Source: Herbidospora galbida (lineage in GTDB: Bacteria > Actinomycetota > Actinomycetes > Streptosporangiales > Streptosporangiaceae). From it: a stretch of DNA of 64,000 nt. The first letter of the stretch is position 1. Each line of letters opens with the position of its first letter. The translations under genes and the position numbers were made by a program. The DNA lies in assembly GCF_005233835.1 (NCBI RefSeq), contig NZ_SZQA01000002.1, positions 124,001 through 188,000 of the forward strand. Direction: 5' to 3'. This document shows positions 6,435-16,534 of this stretch, in pieces. The notes beneath the pieces are model-generated. The model saw only the letters and a list, made by a program, of their open reading frames with translations, made no database searches and was not told the DNA's origin.

Positions 6435-6455
6435 GGCGAACTTCGGCACCGTTGG

Positions 6456-6496
6456 AGCGGGTGCCGGGAATCGAATCCGCGCTGTCAGCTTGAGAA
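6456..6496 (-). repeat. Degenerate copy of the tRNA-Gly(CCC) 3' half (oldest att remnant)
   Basis: 41 bp match the 3' half of the intact tRNA-Gly at 15821 (anticodon loop to discriminator base) with three mismatches. Matching landmarks are the T-loop region (AATCGAA) and the anticodon-stem stretch (CTGTCAGCTT). The match ends at the anticodon-loop boundary, as in the other copies. I interpret it as an att site left by an old integration event. Confidence 0.6.
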
Positions 6497-6587
6497 GTGT
6501 AGGGAACATATCTCGTGGCATCGCTGACCTGCGCTGGAAGCCAGTGATGAAGAGAATGATCTTGACTTGTTGTGGTGAACATCGAGA

Positions 6588-6986
6588 TCAGAGGCTTCCC
6601 GTTGATCGCCAGGGTAATGCCTTCGCATCGGAATAGAGCCGCGATATCTCGTCCAGAACTTCCTGCATGGTCGTCTCCACGTCCCACCACGTGCTGTCCA
6701 GGGCGCGAATCGTGAGATCCACAGTCGACCCATCCGCATCGTGAGCAGTCAACTCACCGTCAATGAGCTGAGCATCGTCTCCGAACATTGCGACAAGCTG
6801 CTGAGTACTCATGAGGAAGCTTTCTGCAGTTTCGGTGATCTCCCGGTAGCGGGGGCTGAACAGTTCGTCTATCTCCAACCGCCACCGGTATCCCTCGACC
6901 ATCGGACCCAGAGATGTAAGGAGACCTGCGAGGGTGACGAGGCCCTCCTCGCGCCAACATCGGAAGGTCAAACCGCTTTCCGCCAC
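6588..6986 (-). CDS. Hypothetical protein, 132 residues
   Basis: GTG start at 6986 with GAGAGG about 10 nt upstream. The protein is acidic, with LAGLLTSLGPMVEGYRWRLEI, ETAESFLMSTQQLVAMFGDD and DSTWWDVETTMQEVLDEISR. No signal peptide or membrane segment is visible. This composition (acidic, Trp-rich, under 150 residues) resembles actinobacterial immunity-like proteins, but I do not recognise a family. It is the only intact gene between the att remnants at 6456 and 7363. Confidence 0.5.
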   Translation of the reverse strand: MAESGLTFRCWREEGLVTLAGLLTSLGPMVEGYRWRLEIDELFSPRYREITETAESFLMSTQQLVAMFGDDAQLIDGELTAHDADGSTVDLTIRALDSTWWDVETTMQEVLDEISRLYSDAKALPWRSTGSL

Positions 6987-7088
6987 TTGATGGCCGCCTC
7001 TCGAACATGTGTGGACGTTGCCACACGGCCAAGGCTGCCTCCGCCGCTGCGACTCTGACTGCGCAAGGTCCTCAAGGTTATGGGCCTG

Positions 7089-7178
7089 GCGGTGTGGACG
7101 AACACTGATTACCAGGGCTGGCGGGGTCTACGCCTTAAGTTTTGTCGGCGACTGAATAACCGCTGCTCGCGGGGGCGC
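7089..7178 (+). pseudogene. Decayed copy of the small island ORF seen at 15443
   Basis: The sequence starts like the ORF at 15443 (VWTN..) and keeps blocks corresponding to its VY...VGDY..AAR part at the DNA level (GTCTAC, GTCGGCGACT, GCTGCTCGC). Indels destroy the frame and a stop follows near 7188. It lies about 190-270 bp left of an att copy, the same relative place as the better-preserved version left of the intact tRNA-Gly. This supports related element ends. Confidence 0.4.
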
Positions 7179-7230
7179 CACCAGACATGACCTCGTCGGC
7201 CCACAGCGATTGGGCGGCCGAAGTCGATTG

Positions 7231-7403
7231 GCCGGGGACTAGGCGAAGCCGTAAAGAAAAGAAAGTCTTGACGAGCGAAGCGAACAGCGGAGCGGGGGAG
7301 CGTGAGGGGGCGAAGCTCCCTGACAGCGGGGGTCTGGGGGTCGTCCCGCAGAGTAACCAAAGAGCGGGTGACGGGGATCGAACCCGCGCTGTCAGCTTGG
7401 GAA
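7231..7403. repeat. att-linked flank repeat R1 with truncated tRNA-Gly 3' half (7363-7403)
   Basis: The left part shares GGCGAAGCCGTAA, CGAGCGAAGCGA and GGGGGTCTGGGGGTCG with the repeats at about 12690 and 15634. At 7363-7403 it ends in a 41-bp copy of the tRNA-Gly 3' half with one mismatch, oriented as a minus-strand tRNA. Sequence after 7403 diverges at once. It is an att copy plus downstream flank. Translating it gives nonsense peptides such as GDGDRTRAVSLG that are not genes. Confidence 0.7.
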
Positions 7404-7573
7404 TCCACAAGTGATCTACCCTCTGCGAGCTGGGAACAAGGGGTGCGGTTCCCCCCCATCTCCCCGGCAGGGGTCTGAGGCGGAGCGGAGCCCATCTCGG
7501 TTCTGGACACCTGTCATCCGAATGCGCCTCCCAGACGGTAATCATCGCCGGAGACAACGATCGGAGATGGTGG

Positions 7574-7963
7574 ATGGACGACGGGTTCGCCGAGTATGTG
7601 GCGCACCGGCACTTACGGCTGTGCCGGATGGCCTATCTCCTCACCCGGGATTGGGGCACGGCCGAGGATTTGGTGCAAACCGCGCTGTCGAAGGCATGGC
7701 TCGCCTGGCGGCGGGTCGAGGGCAATCCCGACCCCTACGTCTATCGGATTATCGTGAACACCCATGCCTCGTGGTGGCGCAGGCGCTGGCGCGGTGAGGT
7801 GCCGGCCGCGCACATACCTGAGGCCGCCGATCCACGCGACGCGTCCGCCGAGGTAGCCGATCAGGCCGCACTGTGGAGCGCGATCGGCGCACTTTCCCCG
7901 CGCCAACGTGCGGTGATCGTTCTGCACTACTTCGAGGGACGGACGCTCACCCAGGTCGCGGAC
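7574..7963 (+). pseudogene. SigE-family RNA polymerase sigma factor, truncated by IS insertion
   Basis: ATG 7574 opens a sigma-70 region 2 protein of the actinobacterial SigE-like ECF type: MAYLLTRDWGTAEDLVQTAL, then PYVYRIIVNTHASWWRRR. Region 4 begins (LSPRQRAVIVLHYFEGRTLT) but is cut after QVAD, where the IS3 left end begins at 7964. A stop two codons later (7970-7972) lies inside the IS. The recognition helix of region 4.2 is missing and I do not find it on the far side of the element, so flanking DNA was lost as well. The truncated product should not recognise a -35 element. Confidence 0.8.
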
Positions 7964-8359
7964 TGGGCTTGATCCGGTTTGACGGACACCTGAGATCAGG
8001 GGTTCGTCCCCGGAAAGGGTGTCCATCATGGAGACCATGGGCAAGAAGAGACGTCCACGACGGTCGTTCACCCCGGAGTTCAAAGCCGAGATCGTCGAGC
8101 TGTGCCGGCGGGGTGAGCGTTCGGTTGGGCAGGTGGCCAGGGACTTCGATCTGACCGAGACCGCGGTGCGGGACTGGGTCCGCCAGGCCGAGATCGACAC
8201 CGGGCAGCGCGATGGGCTGACCAGCGCCGAGCGGGAGGAACTGGCCGCCCTGCGGCGGGAGAACCGCCGGTTGCGCGAGGACGTCGACGTCCTCAAGCGG
8301 GCCACGGCTTTCTTCGTGCGGGAGACCCGGTGAACGTGGACCCGTTCATCGAGGCGGAG
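7964..8359 (+). mobile_element. Partial duplicate of the IS3-family left end (396 bp)
   Basis: These 396 bp repeat, with no difference I can see, the first 396 bp of the complete element that starts at 8360. They hold the left inverted repeat (beginning TGGGCTTGATCC), a full orfA and the first codons of orfB, ending at ATCGAGGCGGAG. The sigma-factor gene stops exactly at its left edge. It is either a first IS copy whose right part was lost when a second copy inserted or recombined, or a tandem duplication. Identity implies a recent event. Confidence 0.85.
8028..8333 (+). CDS. IS3-family OrfA (duplicate copy)
   Basis: A 101-residue helix-turn-helix protein (RRSFTPEFKAEIVELCRRGE, QVARDFDLTETAVRDWVRQA) followed by a leucine-zipper-like helix (EELAALRRENRRLREDVDVL), typical for OrfA of IS3 elements. 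ATG 8028 is chosen because AAAGGG lies about 8 nt upstream; an in-frame GTG at 8019 exists. It is identical to the OrfA at 8424 and has lost its orfB partner in cis. Confidence 0.88.
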   Translation: METMGKKRRPRRSFTPEFKAEIVELCRRGERSVGQVARDFDLTETAVRDWVRQAEIDTGQRDGLTSAEREELAALRRENRRLREDVDVLKRATAFFVRETR

Positions 8360-8423
8360 TGGGCTTGATCCGGTTTGACGGACACCTGAGATCAGGGGTT
8401 CGTCCCCGGAAAGGGTGTCCATC

Positions 8424-8729
8424 ATGGAGACCATGGGCAAGAAGAGACGTCCACGACGGTCGTTCACCCCGGAGTTCAAAGCCGAGATCGTCGAGCTGTG
8501 CCGGCGGGGTGAGCGTTCGGTTGGGCAGGTGGCCAGGGACTTCGATCTGACCGAGACCGCGGTGCGGGACTGGGTCCGCCAGGCCGAGATCGACACCGGG
8601 CAGCGCGATGGGCTGACCAGCGCCGAGCGGGAGGAACTGGCCGCCCTGCGGCGGGAGAACCGCCGGTTGCGCGAGGACGTCGACGTCCTCAAGCGGGCCA
8701 CGGCTTTCTTCGTGCGGGAGACCCGGTGA
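8424..8729 (+). CDS. IS3-family transposase OrfA
   Basis: Same 101-residue HTH_Tnp_1 protein as the copy at 8028. Its stop TGA (8727-8729) overlaps the GTG start of orfB at 8726 in the arrangement GTGA. In IS3 elements programmed -1 frameshifting between OrfA and OrfB produces the active OrfAB transposase; here translational coupling through GTGA is also possible. The zipper-like helix near the C-terminus supports multimerisation. Confidence 0.88.
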   Translation: METMGKKRRPRRSFTPEFKAEIVELCRRGERSVGQVARDFDLTETAVRDWVRQAEIDTGQRDGLTSAEREELAALRRENRRLREDVDVLKRATAFFVRETR

Positions 8730-9598
8730 ACGTGGACCCGTTCATCGAGGCGGAGAAGCAAAACGGTCACAACGTCAAACGGGCGTGTGAGCTGCTGGAG
8801 GTCTCCCGAACCGCCTTCTACGCGCGTCGCGCCGCCGTTCCTGGGCCTCGTGCCGTCCGCGATGGGGAACTGAGTGAGCGGATCGGCGGTGTGCACCGCG
8901 AGTCGCGGGGAACCTACGGCGCGCCACGTATCCACGCCGCTCTGCGGGAGGAGGGTGAGCGGTGCGGGCGTCGGCGGGTGGCCCGGCTGATGCGCGGGCT
9001 GGGATTACAGGGCAGGCATCGGCGGCGCCGGCAGATCACCACGATCCCCGATCCGGCCGCCGCCGGGCGGCCCGATCTGATCGGCCGAACCTTCGAGCCC
9101 GACCCCGGCGGGCTGGACACGCGCTGGTGCGGCGACATCACGTATGTCAGAACCGATGAGGGCTGGTTGTATCTGGCGACCGTCATCGATATCGCCTCCC
9201 GCCGCGTGGTCGGGTGGGCGACCGCCGACCATCTGCGCACCAAACTGGTCACCGACGCCCTGCGGCAGGCCTGGCGCAACCGCCGCCCCACCCAGCCGGT
9301 GATCTTCCATTCCGACCGTGGCTGTCAATACACCAGCGCCGCCTACGCCCGCCTGGCCGAGCGGCTCGACGTCCGGCTGTCGGTCGGCCGCACAGGCCAA
9401 TGCTGGGACAACGCCCTGGCCGAGTCGTTCTTCGCCACGATCAAGGGCGAACTGCTGGACGAGCGCCGCTGGCCCACGCGAGCCGCCGCCCGCAGCGCGA
9501 TCTTCGAGTTCATCGAGAGCTGGTACAACCTGCATCGTCTGCACAGCAGCCTCGGCTACGTTAGCCCCGCTGCCTACGAAGAAGCTCGCGCGGCCTGA
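8726..9598 (+). CDS. IS3-family transposase OrfB (DDE integrase core)
   Basis: A 290-residue rve-type catalytic protein. An HTH_21 region (RGTYGAPRIHAALREEGERC) precedes the core with the DDE triad: D in RWCGDITYV, D in FHSDRGCQYTS and E in ALAESFFATIKGEL. The C-terminus has the usual YNLHRLHSSLGYVSPAAYEE. All motifs are intact, so the element may still be active together with OrfA. Confidence 0.93.
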   Translation: MNVDPFIEAEKQNGHNVKRACELLEVSRTAFYARRAAVPGPRAVRDGELSERIGGVHRESRGTYGAPRIHAALREEGERCGRRRVARLMRGLGLQGRHRRRRQITTIPDPAAAGRPDLIGRTFEPDPGGLDTRWCGDITYVRTDEGWLYLATVIDIASRRVVGWATADHLRTKLVTDALRQAWRNRRPTQPVIFHSDRGCQYTSAAYARLAERLDVRLSVGRTGQCWDNALAESFFATIKGELLDERRWPTRAAARSAIFEFIESWYNLHRLHSSLGYVSPAAYEEARAA

Positions 9599-9638
9599 CC
9601 ACCACAACAACGGTGTCCGTCAAAGCGGAACAAGCTCA

Positions 9639-10025
9639 GAGATCGATTGTGGACTCCGAACACCACCCCTATGACCTATGACTCAGCCCCGGGCCGGTTC
9701 CCCGAGGTGACTTCAAACGTCTCATGTCTGGGCGGAATCAAGTCTGGCCATCCGCAGAGGTGAAGGAAGCGTTCAAGCCCATCGGATGGTGGAGCGGTTG
9801 CCCATCTCCACCGCCACCGATCCGTTTGACGGACTTCACCGGCCCCCTGCTATGGGTGAACCCCATGTGGTGTGGCGGCGGATCGGAACCCACTCAGTAT
9901 TCACGCCCCCACCCGGCCCGTAGCGTTGCCGCATATGCGCGGAGGGAGTTGACCCGCACGTGGTCGGGGGACACCGATGTTCACATTGGTACCGGGCAAC
10001 ACAGCCATTGGGGTGGCTTCGGCGT
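9639..10025. other. Intergenic stretch without a recognised gene
   Basis: About 390 bp to the right of the IS. The missing end of the interrupted sigma-factor gene is not here. One short piece at about 9819-9836 (GATCCGTTTGACGGAC) resembles the IS terminal repeat and could be a relic of another end or chance. No convincing ORF is seen; open frames on the plus strand are antisense to the SRPBCC gene. Confidence 0.4.
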
Positions 10026-10523
10026 TCACCGCGCGATGCACAGTTCGGCGAGGCGTTCCAGAGTGCTCGCCATCTGCGTCTGCCACCATGCGCGCCCACT
10101 GTCCACTTCCGCGCGTTTGTCCTCCGGTATGCGAGAGCCGTCGAAGATCTCGGTCACGGCCGTCGCCCCAGCCCCGTCAGGTCGCAGGTCGAAGATCCAC
10201 CGGTGACCCCATGCGGTCCCGGGCTCGGTGGCGTCCGGGTGCCCTCGACCGGGTCTCGGCTCCCAGCCGATGCGGCGGTCCCGCTCGAACTCGACGACGT
10301 GGTTGTTCATTTCGTAGTCGCCATAGCGCTCGTAGTGCATCCGCATCACGAAGACATCCCCGACGCCCGAGACCGCGGCGTCGCGGACGCAGCCTCGCAG
10401 CATCCCCGATCCGTCGAGGTCCGGGTGCCGTTGGGGGTCGGTCAGGATCCGGAAGATGTCCTCCGCCGGGACCTTGATGCGCCGGGACACCACCACCACG
10501 GCCTCGCCTGTCGTGCTCGTCAT
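10026..10523 (-). CDS. SRPBCC family protein
   Basis: A 165-residue START/Bet v1-like lipid-binding fold. It opens with VVVSRRIKVPAEDIFRILTD, typical of a polyketide-cyclase-type SRPBCC N-terminus, followed by RHPDLDGSG, then MNNHVVEFERDRRIGWEPRP and a C-terminal helix RAWWQTQMASTLERLAELC. ATG 10523 is selected because GGAGG lies 8 nt upstream. Such single-domain proteins bind small hydrophobic ligands; no specific function can be given. It appears intact inside otherwise decaying island DNA. Confidence 0.82.
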   Translation of the reverse strand: MTSTTGEAVVVVSRRIKVPAEDIFRILTDPQRHPDLDGSGMLRGCVRDAAVSGVGDVFVMRMHYERYGDYEMNNHVVEFERDRRIGWEPRPGRGHPDATEPGTAWGHRWIFDLRPDGAGATAVTEIFDGSRIPEDKRAEVDSGRAWWQTQMASTLERLAELCIAR

Positions 10524-10639
10524 CCGCGCGCCTCCGTCAATCGCAGAGCATGAGCCTGACTCCGGGCTGAACGCTACACCGGGGGTATGACAACGCCTGA
10601 ACACGTACGAGCCCCAACCGGCATGAAGCCGCAGGGGAA

Positions 10640-10717
10640 CACCAGAGCCTCCATCAGAACCGGATCGCTTCACTCCATGACCTGCGGCACACGGGTATCA
10701 CCCTTGTCGCCGCCTAA
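10640..10717 (+). pseudogene. Tyrosine recombinase (integrase) relic, catalytic box II
   Basis: In one frame 10670-10714 reads SLHDLRHTGITLVAA and is stopped by TAA at 10715. HDLRHTG is the hallmark box II of tyrosine recombinases (catalytic H and R). Upstream (about 10640) LHQNRIA may continue the same protein. No catalytic tyrosine segment follows in frame. The relic lies about 160 bp left of the att copy at 10877, the expected place for an integrase next to its att site. Confidence 0.6.
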
Positions 10718-10876
10718 GCATCTCGCCCCGAAGTTGATGATGCGGATGGGCTGAACGCGCTCCTCCAAGCGGATGAGGAGGGTGGTGCTCTCGCGCCAAC
10801 CATGTGGCGATCTGAGCTGAGAGCGATCAGGGCCCATGTTCGAGATCATGTCCCGGACCTGGGCCTTTAGCATGAG

Positions 10877-10917
10877 AGCGGGTGACGGGAATCGAACCCG
10901 CGCTGTCCGCTTGGGAA
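10877..10917 (-). repeat. Truncated tRNA-Gly 3' half (att copy)
   Basis: A 41-bp copy of the 3' half of the tRNA-Gly at 15821 with a single mismatch (CTGTCCGCTT for CTGTCAGCTT). After the anticodon-loop boundary it continues TCGCATGGATCA, exactly as the copy at 12957 does. The two copies therefore mark related element ends. Unlike the copies at 7363, 12957 and 15821 it lacks the GC-rich flank repeat on its left. Confidence 0.75.
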
Positions 10918-11015
10918 TCGCATGGATCACAGTCCCAGACAGGGCGTTCCGTGCTGTCGGACCTCTGATCTACGGTGTGCCATCACGACTGTCCTTGGTG
11001 ATGGGAGTGATGAGC

Positions 11016-11888
11016 ATGGGGCTGACGACGCCCTCGGCGCCGTTCGATATAGCGGCTGTCTTTCCTGAGCTGGCAGGCCAAAGCAGGACCACCGTTCGGC
11101 TGCACCCGCGCCGAGGTGAGCCGGCCATCACGGACAGTTCTATCGGCGGCCCGCTGTTGTGGCCTGCTGATGAACCCTGGCCCATCTGCCCGGAGCCCCT
11201 GACTCATCATCCGTCGGAGGGGTGGGATCCGCTTCCGCTGGTTCCGGTCCTTCAGCTCTTCGCCTGCGATGTTCCGGAAGTGCCCTTCCCCGAGGGCGCC
11301 GACGCTCTCCAGGTGTTGTGGTGCCCGCTCGATCATGAACCCTACTTTCAGCCTCACACGACTGCGCGCTGGCGGAAGGCGGAAGCGGCCGGGAGCGTCC
11401 TCATTGAGGCCCCTACACCAGATCCCGACAGCGACGAGTCTTATCTCCCTATGGCTTGTGTGCTGTCGCCGGAGCGTGTGGAGGAGTATCCGGCGGGCTG
11501 GGGTCTTCCGGCTGAGCTCAGAAATCGGATCTGGGCCTGGGAGGATGAATTCCCGAATCCTGACAATTGGAGATACTTCTCGCACCTTTCGAGTGCCCCA
11601 GGCAGCAAGGTCGGAGGCTGGGTGCGCTGGATCCAGGATCCGGTGGAAATCGAATGCGGTGAAGGCCACATAATGGCGCATTTGTTGACGATTGCCAGCT
11701 GGGAATTTGACATTAAGAGTGGAAAGCGTTGGCCTCCCATCGAGGAGCGTTCTCTGCTCACTCCGCACGCCCCTCCCGAAATTCAAAATCCAACTGATCT
11801 CATGATTCAGGACGCTGGATCACTCTATCTGTTCGTCTGTCAGGAGTGCCCTGAACGCCCGGTCGACTCTTACAGCCAGGGGTCATGA
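11016..11888 (+). CDS. DUF1963 (YwqG-like) protein
   Basis: A 290-residue protein with the DUF1963 pattern: GGPLLWPADEPWPICPEPLT near the N-terminus, PLVPVLQLFACDVPEVPFPE in the middle, an acidic region, GGWVRWIQDPVEIECGEGH, and a late LMIQDAGSLYLFVCQECPE. ATG 11016 is chosen because GGGAG sits 8 nt upstream; two further in-frame ATGs lie just before it. The family is common in bacteria, sometimes linked to toxin immunity or cell-envelope stress, but has no established role. A second, truncated copy of its start region is found near 13197. Confidence 0.75.
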   Translation: MGLTTPSAPFDIAAVFPELAGQSRTTVRLHPRRGEPAITDSSIGGPLLWPADEPWPICPEPLTHHPSEGWDPLPLVPVLQLFACDVPEVPFPEGADALQVLWCPLDHEPYFQPHTTARWRKAEAAGSVLIEAPTPDPDSDESYLPMACVLSPERVEEYPAGWGLPAELRNRIWAWEDEFPNPDNWRYFSHLSSAPGSKVGGWVRWIQDPVEIECGEGHIMAHLLTIASWEFDIKSGKRWPPIEERSLLTPHAPPEIQNPTDLMIQDAGSLYLFVCQECPERPVDSYSQGS

Positions 11889-11949
11889 GGTTAAGGCCCG
11901 AACCCGCTGGGTGGACGTCGTGAAGGGGGTAGTCACGTCCGGCCCCCAT

Positions 11950-12053
11950 GTCCACGACCTCTGTCACACGGGCGACGTGGCTCGCTGCCGAGTCCTCCGG
12001 CCCTGGGCCTCGGAGACCTCGTGACGAGGATGGGCCACGATGACGTCAGAGCT
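11950..12053 (+). pseudogene. Tyrosine recombinase (integrase) relic with Arg-to-Cys box II
   Basis: At 11950-11973 one frame reads VHDLCHTG, the integrase box HDLRHTG with the catalytic Arg changed to Cys. About 33 bp later, in another frame, 12006-12053 reads GLGDLVTRMGHDDVRA, the conserved block that precedes the second catalytic His and the Tyr in these enzymes. The order is right, but a frameshift and the lost Arg make it inactive. It sits between the att copies at 10877 and 12957. Confidence 0.6.
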
Positions 12054-12147
12054 TGTTCCGAGTGCGACGGTGGACGAGATGATCTCCCCGCACGACGGTC
12101 ATCCCGCAGCCTGAGGACCCCGTCGGAGGCAAGTTGGGACCCGCGCA

Positions 12148-12594
12148 GTGTATGTGGTCGGAATTAACGCCGAAGAACAGTCCGCGATTCTTAGGCCTCT
12201 TCTCGTGATCAGTTCCATAGAAGTGAAAGAAGCGCTAAGCCGGTTCGGAGTGGTCGAATGGTATCGCATCTCCATCGGCACCGATCCGCGGGACGGACTT
12301 CACCGGCCGCCGTTGATCGTGTGGCGCTACTCCTCGCCGGCCGACCATGTCCGGGAGTTGATTCACGGCGCCGTCTCGGGCCTGCTGAGCTCTGTCGACT
12401 GGGATGTCGACACGTCTGGAAAGAACTGGACGATACTGCCGTCGAGACTGCGCCAGGAGTACGCCCGCCACGCAGGAAATCCGTATACCGGAGTATTGGG
12501 CGATCTGAAGCGTTCGGATCAGCTATTTTGCGAGAAGGCGAACGCCGACATGGTGCTGTTCCTGTGCAGACTTAACGACACTGCGGCTTTCTGA
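12148..12594 (+). CDS. Hypothetical protein, 148 residues
   Basis: A GTG-initiated frame with good coding character: EEQSAILRPLLVISSIEVKE, then RYSSPADHVRELIHGAVSGL and SSVDWDVDTSGKNWTILPSR. No signal peptide or membrane segment is seen, and codon use is less GC-extreme than core genes, supporting an acquired origin. I recognise no family. No clear ribosome site precedes the GTG. Confidence 0.45.
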   Translation: MYVVGINAEEQSAILRPLLVISSIEVKEALSRFGVVEWYRISIGTDPRDGLHRPPLIVWRYSSPADHVRELIHGAVSGLLSSVDWDVDTSGKNWTILPSRLRQEYARHAGNPYTGVLGDLKRSDQLFCEKANADMVLFLCRLNDTAAF

Positions 12595-12689
12595 CACCTG
12601 CAGACACAAGCAAATCCGGGAAGAACCTCCTCAGGCATGGCCTTGTCGGCCGCAGTAGTCGGGTCGCCGGAGTTGGTCGTGTGGCCGGC

Positions 12690-12997
12690 GAGGCGAAGCC
12701 GTAACGGAAGAAAGCTTGAACGAGCGAAGCGAGCAGCAGTCCGAGCGAAGCGAGGCCTGTCCAGGGAGCGCGAGGGGCGGAGCCCTTCGCCAGGAGCGCA
12801 GCGACCCGGAGCGAGAGCGACGCCGGGACGCGACAGCGGCCAGGGGGAGCGCGAGGGGGCGCAAGCCCTCTCGCATCGGGGGTCTGGGGGTCGCCCCCGG
12901 AAACGAAAAGAGCCCCGCGAAGGTGGTCCGAAGGCCACCGAGCAGGGCTCGCCGAGAGCGGGTGACGGGAATCGAACCCGCGCTGTCAGCTTGGGAA
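12690..12997. repeat. att-linked flank repeat R2 with truncated tRNA-Gly 3' half (12957-12997)
   Basis: Shares GGCGAAGCCGTAAC, CGAGCGAAGCGAG, GGGGGTCTGGGGGTCGCCCCC and the GGTGGTCCGAAGGCCACC hairpin with the region left of the intact tRNA at 15821, plus about 95 bp found only here (12800-12880). At 12957-12997 it carries a perfect copy of the tRNA 3' 41 nt. It therefore includes the tRNA terminator and downstream flank as well as the att core. Confidence 0.75.
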
Positions 12998-13366
12998 TCG
13001 CATGGATCATGCGACGTAGGGGCGGTGACCTGCGACTGGGGGCGGTCGTAGGTGACCGTGGTTGCCCCCTCGTTACCCCGGTTAATGGCACGCTAATGGC
13101 ACGACGATCACAGTTCTGAGCAGAGCGTTCCGTGCTGTCGGACCTCTGCCCTACGGTGTGCCATCACGACGTTCTCCCTGATGATCGGAGAGATGAGCAT
13201 AGGGCTGACGACGCCCTCGGCACCGGGGTGGCGGCTGTCGAGGGCGCGGATGTCCTCCCGCGTGAACACCTTCTCCTCCTTGCTGCCTGGATCGCCGCAC
13301 GCCGAACCCCTGGACGCCATGGCCGACCCTGCGATCAGGCTCCACGCGGGCTGGTACAAATACGTC
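12998..13366. other. Duplicated element left end with broken start of a DUF1963 gene
   Basis: TCGCATGGATCA after the att core, then GCGTTCCGTGCTGTCGGACC, CTACGGTGTGCCATCACGAC and GGGCTGACGACGCCCTCGGC repeat the sequence at 10918-11050. The DUF1963 start codon ATG of that copy is ATA here (near 13199) and homology ends after about ten codons. About 100 bp with two AATGGCACG direct repeats (13084-13103) are inserted in this copy. No intact gene is present before 13367. Confidence 0.55.
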
Positions 13367-13663
13367 ATGAACGATCTCGCCGGCTATCCTCCACGGCCGA
13401 ACGTGCGGCCGGTTCGGCGGGTCTACAGCCGGACGTACCGTGTGTGGGCCCACGTGCTCCTGTGGACGCCGATCGCGATCACGGTGATCGGTGTCATCCT
13501 CGGCTTGGGGCTGTTCGCAGCCGCTGATGCCGACCCGACGCACAGTTCGTCCGCGCTCGGCTATTTCGGCCTCGTCGTGTGGGGCGGCCTCGCGGTCCTG
13601 TCGCCGGTCCTGCTCGGGTCGTTCATTGCCGGGCTGGTCATGCTGATCCGCGCGCGCAGCTGA
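13367..13663 (+). CDS. Small two-TM membrane protein
   Basis: ATG 13367 opens a 98-residue protein: basic N-terminus (RPNVRPVRRVYSRTYRV), then two hydrophobic segments (VLLWTPIAITVIGVILGLGL and GGLAVLSPVLLGSFIAGLVM) and a short basic tail. The topology suggests both termini are cytoplasmic. The frame is open further upstream but that part is duplicated element-end sequence. No ribosome site stands out and no family is recognised. Confidence 0.5.
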   Translation: MNDLAGYPPRPNVRPVRRVYSRTYRVWAHVLLWTPIAITVIGVILGLGLFAAADADPTHSSSALGYFGLVVWGGLAVLSPVLLGSFIAGLVMLIRARS

Positions 13664-13776
13664 GGCCGAGGCTTGCTGCCTGGACGATGTCAGGGCACGC
13701 CGACGGTCACCGTCTCGGCGGAATACCGAGCCTGTACCTCACCGGCTCGAAGAGCCGATCGATGAAGGCGGGCAGG

Positions 13777-14349
13777 TCATCCTGCCCTGAGGTCCGGCCG
13801 TGGTCGGCCGTTGTGACGCAGCCGGAGCCGACGCCGGGGGTGCGAGCGCAGCACCGGGTGGAGGTTCCAGCCCTGCTCCGAGGCGATGCGCAGGGCGTAA
13901 CCGGCCCCGGCGCCCCGGAAGTAGTGTGCGCCGAGTTCCAGGTCGCGGTGGTACTCGCGACGGTACTGGGAGGTCTCCACGCGTCGGGTCTGCTTCTCGA
14001 TGCGCCGGTCCACGCGCGCTTGGTAGTACGCCGTGTCGCCCTCCCGCACCAGCGCCACCGGGGTCACGCACCAGAGCGGGACGAACGGTATTCGGCCCAA
14101 TGTGGCGTCCAGCATTCGTATCGCGCCGTTCTCGGCACGCGGTGCCATGTCGACGATCAGCTGGACCACCGGCGCTACGCAGTGTAAGCAGATCGCGAGG
14201 ACGACCCACACCACCCACCACAGCGGCAGAAACACCAAGGTCAGAGGGAGAAGCAGCAGCCAGCGCAGTGCCCCCGGGCGGACGGGAAGCGGCCCCCAGG
14301 TCAGGTTGTCGGAGTCATGCACGGACAGTGTTTCCTCTCGGCTCGCCAT
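13777..14349 (-). CDS. Hypothetical membrane-associated protein, 190 residues
   Basis: The N-terminal part is polar. A strong hydrophobic stretch follows (WLLLLPLTLVFLPLWWVVWV, about residues 30-60), then a soluble region with TAYYQARVDRRIEKQTRRVE and SQYRREYHRDLELGAHYFRG. The C-terminus is Arg-rich (SHPRRRLRLRHNGRP). It has coding texture on the minus strand and a usable ATG at 14349. I do not recognise a family. The mixed hydrophobic/Arg-rich layout suggests a membrane-anchored cytoplasmic domain. Confidence 0.5.
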   Translation of the reverse strand: MASREETLSVHDSDNLTWGPLPVRPGALRWLLLLPLTLVFLPLWWVVWVVLAICLHCVAPVVQLIVDMAPRAENGAIRMLDATLGRIPFVPLWCVTPVALVREGDTAYYQARVDRRIEKQTRRVETSQYRREYHRDLELGAHYFRGAGAGYALRIASEQGWNLHPVLRSHPRRRLRLRHNGRPRPDLRAG

Positions 14350-14563
14350 CGCTCGACGGTGCGCCCGTGAGCCTACGCCGAAGGCCGATCGACCCGCACG
14401 AAGCGGCGGGCCACGCCGGCCCCGGCATCAGCGAGGGTCCGGCCGGTGTCTCTCACCATGACCGAGCACCGAGATCGGAGAGGTCGAGGAACAAGGATCG
14501 GTATGGCGGTGACGGTCCCGACCATGTCTCGTTTACTGATCAGTCGTTAGACCGGTTGTTACG

Positions 14564-14908
14564 ACGTTCTTGGACCGGCTGGTTCCTGGTGAACTGCGGG
14601 ACTTATTCCAGCGGGTGGTCCCCCCGTCGCACTCGGCACCAGGGAGGCGGCCGGCGGCGAGCGGATGGCTGCCTGATTCTGGCGGCGATCGTGTTCGTGG
14701 TGCCTCCGGCTCCACCTGGCGGCAGCTCCCGCCGGTGTTCGGGGCCTCCGGGCAGACCGTGCACCCCCGCTTCGCCGAGTGGAGCGGCGGGTGGGTGTGG
14801 GCCGAGCTGTACCGGATCTTGCTGGACGAGGTCGGCTCGCGCGGGGAGTTGACTGGGCGCTGAGTGCGATCGACTCGGTCAGCCTGCACGCCATGAAAGG
14901 GCGGAGCC
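14564..14908 (+). pseudogene. IS5-family transposase N-terminal relic
   Basis: The peptide LDRLVPGELRDLFQRVVPP, then STWRQLPPVFGASGQTVHPR and FAEWSGGWVWAELYRILLDE, matches the DUF4096 N-terminal domain of IS5-type transposases. After ELTG a -1 shift is needed to continue as VDWALSAIDSVSLHAMKG. Nothing of the DDE core remains, no start codon is evident and no terminal repeats were found. It is an old fragment abutting the PIN-domain gene. Confidence 0.7.
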
Positions 14909-15375
14909 TCGTGGCGGGGGGAGCCGCCTTCTCCGTCATCCCTGACGGCACCTTGGTGCTCGACAGTGAGGGACTGGCCAAGGCGGTCCTGCGTGATCGT
15001 GCTGTCATGGCATGGCTCGCCCTCGCTCGCGCCGACGACCTCCGCGTGATCACCTCTGCCGCCACCCTTGTTGAGGTAGTGCGCCCCCGTGTCAACCGGC
15101 CGGCCTTGGAGTGGATACTGTCGCGCCTTGTCGTGGAACCGGTCACCGAACTGATCGCCCGCCACTCCGCCAGACTTCTGTCTGACGCAGGCCTGCACGG
15201 ACATAAGTACGCCATTGATGCCATGCTCTGTGCCACTGCTCTCGCTGCCCCTGGCCCCGTGACGGTTCTCACTTCCGACCCGGGCGACTTGGCCGCTCTG
15301 TGGCGGACGCGTCATCGTCATGAAGGTCTAGAAGGTCCGCGACGAGCGCGGCCCAGAACAATCCCCTGTGAGTGA
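14893..15375 (+). CDS. PIN-domain protein (VapC-like), orphan, probably damaged at both ends
   Basis: The core is a PIN ribonuclease fold: first acidic site in GTLVLDSEGLAKAV, Glu in SAATLVEVVRPR, Asp in HKYAIDAMLCATAL and late Asp in TVLTSDPGDLAAL. All four acidic positions of a VapC toxin appear present. The expected family start (M-P-D-G) is ATC-CCT-GAC here, so translation would have to begin upstream in IS5-relic sequence (ATG 14893). The last codons are frame-shifted relative to the likely ancestral ending RVIVMKV, readable in another frame. No antitoxin gene is adjacent. Whether it is expressed is uncertain. Confidence 0.5.
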   Translation: MKGRSLVAGGAAFSVIPDGTLVLDSEGLAKAVLRDRAVMAWLALARADDLRVITSAATLVEVVRPRVNRPALEWILSRLVVEPVTELIARHSARLLSDAGLHGHKYAIDAMLCATALAAPGPVTVLTSDPGDLAALWRTRHRHEGLEGPRRARPRTIPCE

Positions 15376-15442
15376 CCGGCCTCGTTCAGGAACGCTGCGG
15401 CGCTGGTCGGACTCGTGATCCCTGCCAGTCTGATACGGCCTG

Positions 15443-15598
15443 GTGGTGTGGACGAACGGTCACTGGTACCGCTGGCAATCCGGCCGGAGATCAAAGTCGG
15501 GTCGGCCGGTCTACCCCTTTCGCCCTGTCGGCGACTACGTGACAGCTGCTCGCCGAGTCGCCAAGAGGTATGAGCAGATCCGACCGGATTCTTCATAG
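15443..15598 (+). CDS. Small actinobacterial island protein, 51 residues
   Basis: GTG 15443 or 15446 opens VVWTNGHWYRWQSGRR, then VYPFRPVGDYVTAARRVAKR and YEQIRPDSS before TAG 15596-15598. Tiny basic Trp-rich proteins of this pattern occur in actinomycete accessory regions; function unknown. A decayed version at 7089 lies at a similar distance from its att copy, so the gene was probably part of the integrated elements' right end. Confidence 0.45.
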   Translation: MVWTNGHWYRWQSGRRSKSGRPVYPFRPVGDYVTAARRVAKRYEQIRPDSS

Positions 15599-15633
15599 TT
15601 ACGACCAGTCAGCCGGAGTTAGCGGGTTGCAGG

Positions 15634-15820
15634 CTAGGCGAAGCCGTAACAGAAGAATGTTCTAACGAGCGAAGCGAGCAGCATCCCGAGCGAAGCGAGG
15701 CCTTGCCAGGGAGCGCGAGGGGACGGAGTCCCTTCGCATCGGGGGTCTGGGGGTCGCCCCCCCAGAAATACGAAAGTCCCGCGAAGGTGGTCCGAAGGCC
15801 ACCGAGCAGGGCTCGCCGAG
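15634..15820. repeat. att-linked flank repeat R3 next to the intact tRNA-Gly
   Basis: Same blocks as R1 and R2: GGCGAAGCCGTAAC, CGAGCGAAGCGAGC, GGAGCGCGAGGGG and GGGGGTCTGGGGGTCGCC, followed by the tRNA terminator hairpin. The repeat is the downstream flank of tRNA-Gly and was copied together with the tRNA 3' half at earlier insertion events. Confidence 0.65.
15772..15815 (-). terminator. Intrinsic terminator of tRNA-Gly
   Basis: Read on the minus strand just beyond the tRNA: a long hairpin with arms AGCCCTGC...GCGGGACT around GGTGG/CCACC and a short TTCGGA-containing loop, followed by TTTCGT. The same hairpin accompanies the truncated tRNA copy at 12957. Confidence 0.65.
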
Positions 15821-15891
15821 AGCGGGTGACGGGAATCGAACCCGCGCTGTCAGCTTGGGAAGCTGATGTTCTGCCATTGAACTACACCCGC
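15821..15891 (-). tRNA. tRNA-Gly (anticodon CCC)
   Basis: On the minus strand 71 nt fold as a tRNA: acceptor GCGGGTG/CACCCGC, D-arm with GTTCAATGGCAGAAC, anticodon stem TCAGC/GCTGA with loop TTCCCAA (anticodon CCC), and T-arm GCGGG-TTCGATT-CCCGT. CCA is not encoded. Four partial copies of its 3' 41 nt lie to the left, all ending at the anticodon-loop boundary, so the gene is an integration hot spot. Confidence 0.95.
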
Positions 15892-15958: not shown

Positions 15959-16534
15959 GTGCTGCTTTCAGATCGCGACATCAAAGCCGAGGTGGACAGG
16001 GGCAGAGTCCGGCTCACCCCCTACGACCCCGACATGATCCAACCGTCCAGCATCGACGTCCGGCTCGACCGGATGTTCCGGGTCTTCGAGAACCACCGCT
16101 ACCCGCACATCGACCCGTCCTGCGAGCAGCCCGACCTGACGAGGCTCGTCGAGCCGGACAAGGACGAACCGTTCATCCTCCACCCGGGGGAGTTCGTCCT
16201 GGCCAGCACCTACGAGGTCATCAAGCTCCCCGACGACATCGCCAGCCGCCTGGAGGGCAAGTCGAGCCTGGGCAGGCTGGGGCTTCTCACCCACTCGACG
16301 GCCGGCTTCATCGACCCCGGTTTCGAGGGCCACGTCACTCTGGAGCTCAGCAACGTCGCCACGCTCCCCATCAAGCTGTGGCCCGGCATGAAGATCGGTC
16401 AGCTCTGTCTGTTCCGGCTGAGCAGCCCCGCCGAGCACCCGTACGGCTCGGCCGCGTACGGTTCGAGGTACCAGGGGCAGCGTGGGCCCACGCCGTCGCG
16501 GTCTTTCCTCAACTTCCACCGCACCAAGATCTAA
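15959..16534 (+). CDS. dcd: dCTP deaminase
   Basis: A 191-residue trimeric dCTP deaminase/dUTPase-fold protein. [17 protein letters not shown] is near the N-terminus, [20 protein letters not shown] and [20 protein letters not shown] form the active-site region with the catalytic Glu segment, and the nucleotide-binding C-terminal tail is [14 protein letters not shown]. It supplies dUMP/dUTP for thymidylate synthesis; some actinobacterial homologues also hydrolyse the triphosphate. GTG 15959 follows TACCCT at 15947-15952 by 6 nt, indicating a leaderless mRNA and supporting this start. Confidence 0.95.

Follow-up and report, generated by a model that had tools for sequence, protein, structure and literature searches.

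We analysed a 64,000-nucleotide window of the Herbidospora galbida genome (contig NZ_SZQA01000002.1, positions 124,001 to 188,000) in which partial copies of a tRNA gene are lined up beside the intact gene. The intact gene, a tRNA-Gly(CCC) on the minus strand, was located by ARAGORN at 15820-15891; we defined the attachment core as its 42-nt 3' half, which runs from the discriminator to the anticodon loop and occupies 15820-15861. Four partial 3' halves, also on the minus strand, lie to its left at 12956-12997 (0/42 mismatches), 10876-10917 (1/42), 7362-7403 (1/42), and 6455-6496 (3/42). The first three of these cores separate units u2 from u1, u3 from u2, and u4 from u3, and the fourth is the distal end of the array; listed from that end, the spacings between cores are 907, 3514, 2080, and 2864 bp. 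Similarity between the copies stops at TTGGGAA in the anticodon loop, and the following 29 nt have 20-24 mismatches to the tRNA. A preliminary description, made from the sequence alone, had reported four partial copies and an intact gene in a single orientation, a shared end at the anticodon-loop boundary, and units of about 0.9, 3.5, 2.1, and 2.9 kb; we reproduced each of these observations (with 3, 1, 1, and 0 mismatches), although our five start positions are one base lower because we counted 42 nt and not 41. To the right of the tRNA lies dcd (15959-16534, plus strand), a dCTP deaminase-like gene (PF22769) that forms the conserved right flank of the site and served as our yardstick for core divergence.

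The unit touching the tRNA, u1 (12998-15819), is the newest by position. It holds two open reading frames (ORFs) without a family match, no match to the core proteins of actinomycete integrative and conjugative elements (AICEs), and a weak PIN-domain ORF (14779-15375, plus strand) that scores 22.0 bits against a curated cut-off of 23.6, has no NCBIfam match, and is a candidate VapC-like toxin. Two further ORFs without a family match lie in u2 (10918-12955), together with a frame-disrupted remnant of a tyrosine-integrase C terminus (11899-12056, plus strand). This scar matches the AICE integrases of the tRNA-Gly site in two frames, with 63% identity over 27 aa and 54% over 24 aa (E 2.4e-9); the best match of the reversed query, at another place, had an E of 0.017. 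In u3 (7404-10875), a sigma-70-like gene is interrupted by an insertion sequence and accompanied by an SRPBCC-like ORF. The oldest unit by position, u4 (6497-7361), has one ORF (6588-6986, minus strand) without a family match and no copy of the arm repeat described below. Of seven window proteins submitted to Pfam and NCBIfam, only one gave a match, the weak PIN similarity in Pfam; a complete AICE core set is absent from the window's units, where the u2 scar is the sole integrase remnant.

To place the array in its genus, we searched seven Herbidospora genomes for the 42-mer, allowing up to 3 mismatches, and found 30 matches, including the 7 intact genes. In six of the seven genomes, all matches lie on a single contig and a single strand; in Herbidospora mongoliensis NBRC 105882 (G006), 3 matches share the array contig and 2 are on a separate 6.4-kb contig. 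Every one of the seven genomes has at least one partial copy, and the reversed 42-mer pattern gave no match in any of them. As a control, we searched the same genomes for the tRNA-Thr of the window and found 3 partial 3'-end copies, judged from match ranges, compared with 23 for tRNA-Gly (30 minus the 7 intact genes); this comparison covers tRNA-Thr alone, the methods differ (a DNA search as opposed to a pattern search), and the additional short tRNA-Thr matches were taken as other tRNA genes. At another tRNA-Thr gene, partial 3' ends lie about 6-27 kb from the gene in two genomes (G003:C2:441168-467731 and G006:C13:341571-347357), which suggests ordinary integrated elements at that tRNA.

Arrays of this kind extend across the family Streptosporangiaceae, in which NCBI places Herbidospora, Acrocarpospora, and Planomonospora. 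A 38-nt pattern (up to 3 mismatches) matched in 177 of 200 sampled family genomes, with two or more matches in 112, four or more in 58, and a maximum of 14; these counts include the intact gene and matches distant from it, and they undercount genera with a diverged tRNA. Each species is represented in the genome set by a single genome. In one genus (g6), both strands carry matches in 7 of 16 genomes, and some of these matches are far off or on other contigs. Examples of these stray 3' halves are G217:C2:6782571, G142:C1:2098174, and one on G175:C7; perhaps they are secondary sites, inversions, or duplicated regions.

For unit-level comparisons we used 42 stretches (the window and 41 that were fetched), mostly picked for many copies per contig; 38 of them, from 37 genomes, yielded 138 units between cores. 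The genomes include Herbidospora daliensis NBRC 106372 (G004), Planomonospora sp. ID82291 (G021), and Acrocarpospora species (G049, G100, G126, G146, and G164). The remaining four stretches (G010, G013, G018, and G020) have a single core copy. Three of these resemble empty sites, with an intact tRNA, about 17 kb of flank, and no partial copy, although G013 has one partial match on a different contig; the flank of G020 is too short to judge. The preliminary description had proposed looking for a relative with an empty tRNA-Gly site: such sites appear to occur in G010, G013, and G018, but none was found in the window's own genus. A pattern of the window's own junction had no match in the genome contig set, from which near relatives may be absent.

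The 138 units vary widely in size: 75 are at most 2.5 kb, 27 are 2.5-5 kb, 17 are 5-9 kb, and 19 exceed 9 kb. Among the 19 largest, 13 have matches to Int, TraB, and Xis, and 12 have Rep; we refer to these 13 as AICE-type units, two of which are weak calls (G164_u1, which lacks Rep and has a weak TraB, and G015_u1, whose integrase match is in two pieces). Pfam matches to the AICE-type proteins of G021 include PF00589, RepSA of pSAM2, FtsK/SpoIIIE, GntR, and an HTH_17 domain; another of its proteins, presumably SCO3933-like, has no Pfam match. Most of the large units of the relatives thus contain the set that defines an AICE, namely integrase, Xis, Rep, and an FtsK/TraB-like translocase between att sites at a tRNA. 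In the AICE-type units listed, the integrase gene adjoins the core closest to the tRNA. The integrases of two AICE-type units at the tRNA-Gly(CCC) site match PF00589, and AICE-type units with an integrase occupy this site in 12 arrays of relatives; these data support the preliminary attribution of the array to tyrosine-recombinase integration at a tRNA 3' half.

The order of units along the arrays is not random. In the 10 arrays that have an AICE-type unit and more than one unit, an AICE-type unit adjoins the tRNA, an arrangement for which 0 of 200000 shuffles were as extreme; in G015, a second AICE-type unit lies directly behind the first. We left out G092_u2 (Int, Rep, and Xis, no TraB), which is second from the last core in a stretch without an intact tRNA. 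Core mismatches grow outward: across 26 arrays, the within-array rank correlation averages 0.44 (permutation p 0.0004). In 16 of these arrays the farthest copy has more mismatches than the nearest; in 8 the two have equally many, and in 2 the farthest has fewer. The gradient from which the preliminary description had concluded that the farthest copy is oldest is therefore general. Both the position of the AICE-type units and the outward rise in mismatches fit serial insertion at the tRNA, and from these sequence patterns serial integrase-mediated accretion at tRNA-Gly(CCC) appears almost certain.

Most of the small units (up to 2.5 kb) have no integration or transfer genes of their own: 65 of the 75 lack a match to six AICE proteins at E 1e-5, and the other 10 carry pieces of integrase. 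A relaxed integrase search was dropped from the counts; it matched 27 of the 75 small and 25 of the 27 medium units, and the reversed query matched 14 and 23.

The ends of the AICE-type units share a direct repeat of the form nnnGGCACGnnnnnGGCACG, which on the left lies 86 or 102-103 nt inward of the core and on the right about 94 nt inward. From their position and repetition, we take these repeats to be putative integrase arm sites. We call the left copy the P arm (within the first 200 nt, at most 3 mismatches to any of four consensus forms) and the right copy the P' arm. The core flanks every unit by construction; the P-arm repeat is present, with little variation in its position, in 12 of 13 AICE-type units and in 45 of the 65 small units that lack AICE genes, compared with 1/65 in unit middles and 2/65 for the reversed consensus. 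The P'-arm repeat is found in all 13 AICE-type units and in 8 of the 10 units with integrase remnants. In the window, u1 has a P-arm repeat (13084-13103, plus strand) that is perfect to the AICE arm consensus and lies 86 nt from the core, and the arm-consensus search found no P'-arm repeat in this unit; in u2-u4, the best P-arm match has at least 7 mismatches.

The right ends of the units have a second recurrent feature. Of the 13 AICE-type units 12, and of the 65 small units 38, have a hairpin (z < -2, simple shuffles) beside the right core, along the direction of tRNA transcription, compared with 0/13 and 2/65 in unit middles, so an insert often delivers a tRNA 3' half together with a likely terminator. 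We considered whether TGACCTGGGCCTT, a motif of the right ends, is an integrase arm site, but a terminator-like hairpin is the preferred reading, since the motif can pair with the nearby AAGGCCCGGGTC. In the window, a repeat with a terminator-like hairpin (the T repeat) occupies the right end of u2 (12678-12955), with a similar copy at about 15623-15819 and pieces at 7229-7347. We rejected the T repeat as a cassette-specific end, given its 26 matches in the window's genome, 14 of which are at least 110 bp and lie outside the array. Seven of the 13 fetched stretches with outside copies (G000 L124-L136) hold a tRNA or transfer-messenger RNA (tmRNA) gene, and there the T repeat is close to the 3' end of that gene. 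Within Herbidospora, right ends that resemble one another over about 340 bp are found repeatedly.

These comparisons indicate that the window array is old, with u1 keeping a single intact arm and u2-u4 eroded. The window contig (C29) holds none of the genome's 20 PF00589 matches. We found no close relative of the H. daliensis site integrase in the window's genome, where identity is 32% in the longest match and a fragment with 47% identity is interrupted by a stop; the other integrase class was not searched separately. Given this erosion and the lack of a close relative of the site integrase, the window array is probably static unless an AICE arrives.

What do the small units carry? By Pfam, the recurrent cassette families are Gp49-like (A and B, the latter with an HTH partner), PIN (C), PemK/MazF (D), SMI1/KNR4 (E), MazE-like (F), and DUF5615/PIN_10 (G); 2 of the 10 cassette-family proteins submitted had no Pfam match. 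A relative of one of seven toxin-antitoxin proteins was detected by tblastn in 21 of the 75 small units, a count to which other types would add. We also derived 160 mechanical ORFs, which are not gene calls, from the 75 small units and submitted 141 of them (19 were omitted) to Pfam and PADLOC. Among the Pfam matches listed (the best 25 of 44 and the best 25 of 29 families), Gp49 has 10, HTH_3 12, and PIN 4, with at least 3 for DUF433, at least 2 each for DUF5615, Fic, and SMI1/KNR4, and at least 1 each for PemK, MazE, HipA_C, and AbiEii. The PADLOC matches are chiefly HTH regulators, with 1-4 matches each to SoFic, PDC-S04, PDC-S24, NsnC, a pAgo model, and others. One ORF, among the 71 of alignment A2, matches Beta-lactamase (PF00144). 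In 16 ORF comparisons the dN/dS ratio (nonsynonymous over synonymous divergence) is 0.03-0.40, in keeping with purifying selection on the cargo. The same toxin-antitoxin cargo is inverted relative to the core in G001_u1 (L031) when compared with G021_u4, G218_u3, G204_u1, and G221_u1, showing that cargo orientation is not fixed.

Several small units are similar from core to core across species or genera, and we checked the flanks of eight such pairs. Cassettes A (G021/G195), B (G021/G218), B2 (G204/G221), and D (G049/G164) are 89-95% identical, with the similarity ending at the cores. Outside the cores, B2 shares nothing and D only the P arm plus 33 bp; the B pair has an older cassette in common on one side but no similarity on the other, and in A one flank has a similar stretch of 310 bp at a distance of more than 1 kb.

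We then compared synonymous divergence (dS) of the cargo with that of dcd. The cargo values are lower for A (0.139 versus 0.480), B (0.151 versus 0.561), D (0.098 and 0.132 versus 0.741), H (0.078 versus 0.839), I (0.038 versus 0.225), J (0.321 versus 1.363), and F between Acrocarpospora and Herbidospora (0.36-0.43 versus 1.1-1.2); B2 has no dS comparison, dcd being outside the G204 stretch. Altogether, 11 of 17 comparisons have a cassette dS less than half that of dcd. Between units of up to 5 kb from different genera, there are 43 matches of at least 400 bp; dcd is available for both partners in 25 of these, and 15 of the 25 exceed the dcd identity. Low dS relative to dcd, similarity that ends at the cores, and unrelated flanks argue that some cassettes have moved as units, and we consider such mobility between species and genera likely from these alignments.

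As a whole, the data are best explained by serial accretion that includes small cassettes, with some movement of units and with an AICE integrase acting in trans, an account that we hold with good though not full confidence. Comparison of the arrays supports the 3' half of tRNA-Gly(CCC) as the attachment core for tyrosine integrases of the AICE family. Each insertion would rebuild the tRNA from the element's own 3' half, often bringing a terminator-like hairpin, and would displace the previous half outward; because the old half is pushed out at every insertion, repeated insertion would build an array whose youngest member touches the tRNA. Many inserts are not complete AICEs, either no longer so or never having been so; they are small cassettes bounded by cores, in many cases with a P arm and a hairpin, and their cargo is one gene or a few, with toxin-antitoxin relatives in at least 21 of 75. 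The mover would be the integrase of a co-resident or visiting AICE, supplied in trans, a step towards which we lean less strongly than towards mobility itself.

Several observations weigh against this account. The P'-arm repeat is present in just 3 of the 65 small units without AICE genes, and 20 of the 65 have no recognizable P arm, including u2 and u4 of the window (u3, which is outside this set, likewise lacks one). Some of the 65 hold degenerate, sub-threshold traces of integrase, u2 among them. In the C and E pairs a neighbouring cassette is shared as well, and in H and F the similarity covers the greater part of the cassette without reaching its full length. In 6 of the 17 comparisons the cassette dS exceeds half of the dcd value, and in 3 of these it is above dcd itself (two comparisons of C, and A in G195/G221); G and F within Acrocarpospora fall between half of dcd and equality, and inverted B is equal. 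dcd is the only yardstick gene for core divergence, and unit movement is deduced by comparing sequences, with no circle or transfer observed. Finally, the choice of stretches favoured many copies, so the proportions are not unbiased.

Some of these points would be expected if the arrays were graveyards of decayed AICEs, that is, classical cis-mobilizable elements (CIMEs) whose core genes were lost in place, with small units that are immobile and vertically inherited. Integrase pieces are recognizable in 10 of the 75 small units and in 9 of the 27 medium ones, many of them located 3' and close to the core, and u2 carries its scar; P'-arm repeats persist in 8 of the 10 remnant-bearing units. The toxin-antitoxin cassette D keeps an integrase piece and a P'-arm repeat in G146, whereas its G049 homologue has just a trace. 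The outward increase in core mismatches is compatible with this history too, and the divergence of cassette C and of one A pair is at least as old as that of dcd. However, the core-to-core homologues A, B, and D have synonymous divergence about 3.5-7.6 times below that of dcd, their flanks are unrelated (on both sides for D, on one side or both for A and B), and when the interiors of the 65 small units were compared with the 13 AICE-type units, only 5 had a match of at least 120 bp. Many units probably did arise by decay of AICEs, but this can hardly be their whole history, and as a full explanation we judge it unlikely, at perhaps one chance in a handful.

Alternatively, cassettes could spread by homologous recombination between arrays through the repeated cores, arms, and T repeats. 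The cores are indeed near-identical 42-nt repeats, and the 340-bp right ends recur within Herbidospora; but for B2, D, and one side of A and B there is no similarity outside the cores, or little beyond the P arm, which leaves only short homology for such recombination and makes this route improbable. A dispersed tRNA-derived repeat or a tandem duplication unconnected with integration, the former having been named in the preliminary description as what could overturn its reading, can be dismissed almost outright: repeated tRNA halves alone would appear alike and stray matches exist in genomes of other genera, but in Herbidospora the pattern search and its reversed control reject dispersal, the copies being confined and the arrays differing between relatives, AICE-type units with an integrase sit at the same site, and the window units mostly differ in sequence, end repeats excepted.

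Serial accretion with movement in trans can be extended further, to an integron-like system of one-armed, recombinase-free cassettes about 1 kb long. Each cassette would supply a tRNA 3' half and a terminator along with one or two genes of cargo, frequently of toxin-antitoxin or defence-like type; the cassettes would be moved as units by the integrases of AICEs visiting the site and shuffled family-wide as a pool of addiction and defence genes. We offer this extension tentatively, its chances seeming slightly short of even.

Small modules without their own recombinase are known elsewhere. The pdif (dif) modules of Acinetobacter plasmids are small, bounded by recombination sites, and in some cases carry toxin-antitoxin genes; in contrast to these mainly plasmid-borne XerCD sites, the arrays here involve a tRNA and an AICE integrase. 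Chromosomal integrons are arrays of short cassettes in which toxin-antitoxin pairs are common and the recombinase is supplied separately; here, unlike in integrons, the boundaries are tRNA 3' halves and cargo orientation is variable, although no search was aimed at IntI or attC. A closer parallel is the accretion of integrative and conjugative or mobilizable elements and of CIMEs, the latter being described as att-flanked elements without integration or transfer genes, in tandem at one target, where later elements accrete (PMC5704250). The small units here likewise mostly lack such genes and accrete in tandem at one site; unlike CIMEs, the arrays have up to 13 units per genome, the units are often about 1 kb, and the small ones are mostly without P'-arm repeats. 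In addition, units are often accompanied by a terminator-like hairpin, and several appear to have crossed species or genus borders. Tandem AICEs are mentioned for Frankia and S. avermitilis (PMC3218068, in the part accessible). Like AICEs, our large units have a PF00589 integrase, RepSA, FtsK/SpoIIIE, and GntR between tRNA 3'-end copies; long arrays of small integrase-less units do not appear in that part of the source.

The additive flexible genomic island of Ca. Methylopumilus (Methylophilaceae), with repeats of the last 20 nt of tRNA-Lys, resembles our arrays in its recurrent tRNA 3' ends, additive inserts (330 bp to 42 kb), and many unknown genes; attP arms, a helper element, and unit transfer do not appear in the accessible part of its description (PMC10872708). 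The same part defines tycheposons as tRNA-bordered cargo elements of 4-200 kb with a tyrosine recombinase (PMC10872708). Our small units differ, being mostly 0.9-2 kb and, in 65 of 75 cases, without a detected recombinase. We therefore regard the arrays as CIME-like accretion at a tRNA that is unusual in its length, its small one-armed cassettes, its travelling likely terminator, and its toxin-antitoxin cargo. Open-access titles and abstract openings yielded no report of integrase-less cassette arrays at tRNA-Gly in Streptosporangiaceae, which is weak evidence of novelty. What goes beyond the preliminary description is that the arrays are family-wide and that their small units mostly have no detected recombinase, some of them probably moving as units.

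If this account is true, small genes without a recombinase can travel and accumulate at one tRNA through the integrase of another element. The arrays would constitute a position-ordered record of insertions in an actinomycete family and compact places in which to seek toxin-antitoxin and defence genes, and the one-armed attachment sites, if functional, would be minimal substrates of tRNA-targeting integrases.

A few local features complete the picture. G002_u1 (L032), of 3.6 kb, seems to consist of two or more cassettes fused together: the match between its bases 1306-2280 and an Acrocarpospora cassette starts 6 nt past the core of the latter, and no core with up to 15 mismatches was found at the joint. 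In the same genome as the window, G000:C68:19000-24000 (L137) has tRNA-Pro(TGG) and tRNA-Gly(TCC) close to a tyrosine-integrase gene that is interrupted, which may mark a second decayed element. Within the window, 472 bp of the u3 region are 91.5% like a unit of G216, which belongs to a different genus; by eye, u3 also has an inverted repeat that resembles a terminator (about 10828-10869) and, at about 10676-10715, a weak integrase-like motif. The u3 insertion sequence (7963-9639, plus strand), which we take to be of the IS3 type, has rve domains, is bounded by terminal inverted repeats, and contains an internal duplication (repeat D1, spacing 396). At 7958-8653, the start of this element, which lies in the sigma-70-like gene, is present in identical copies 396 bp apart, with two identical 104-aa ORFs.

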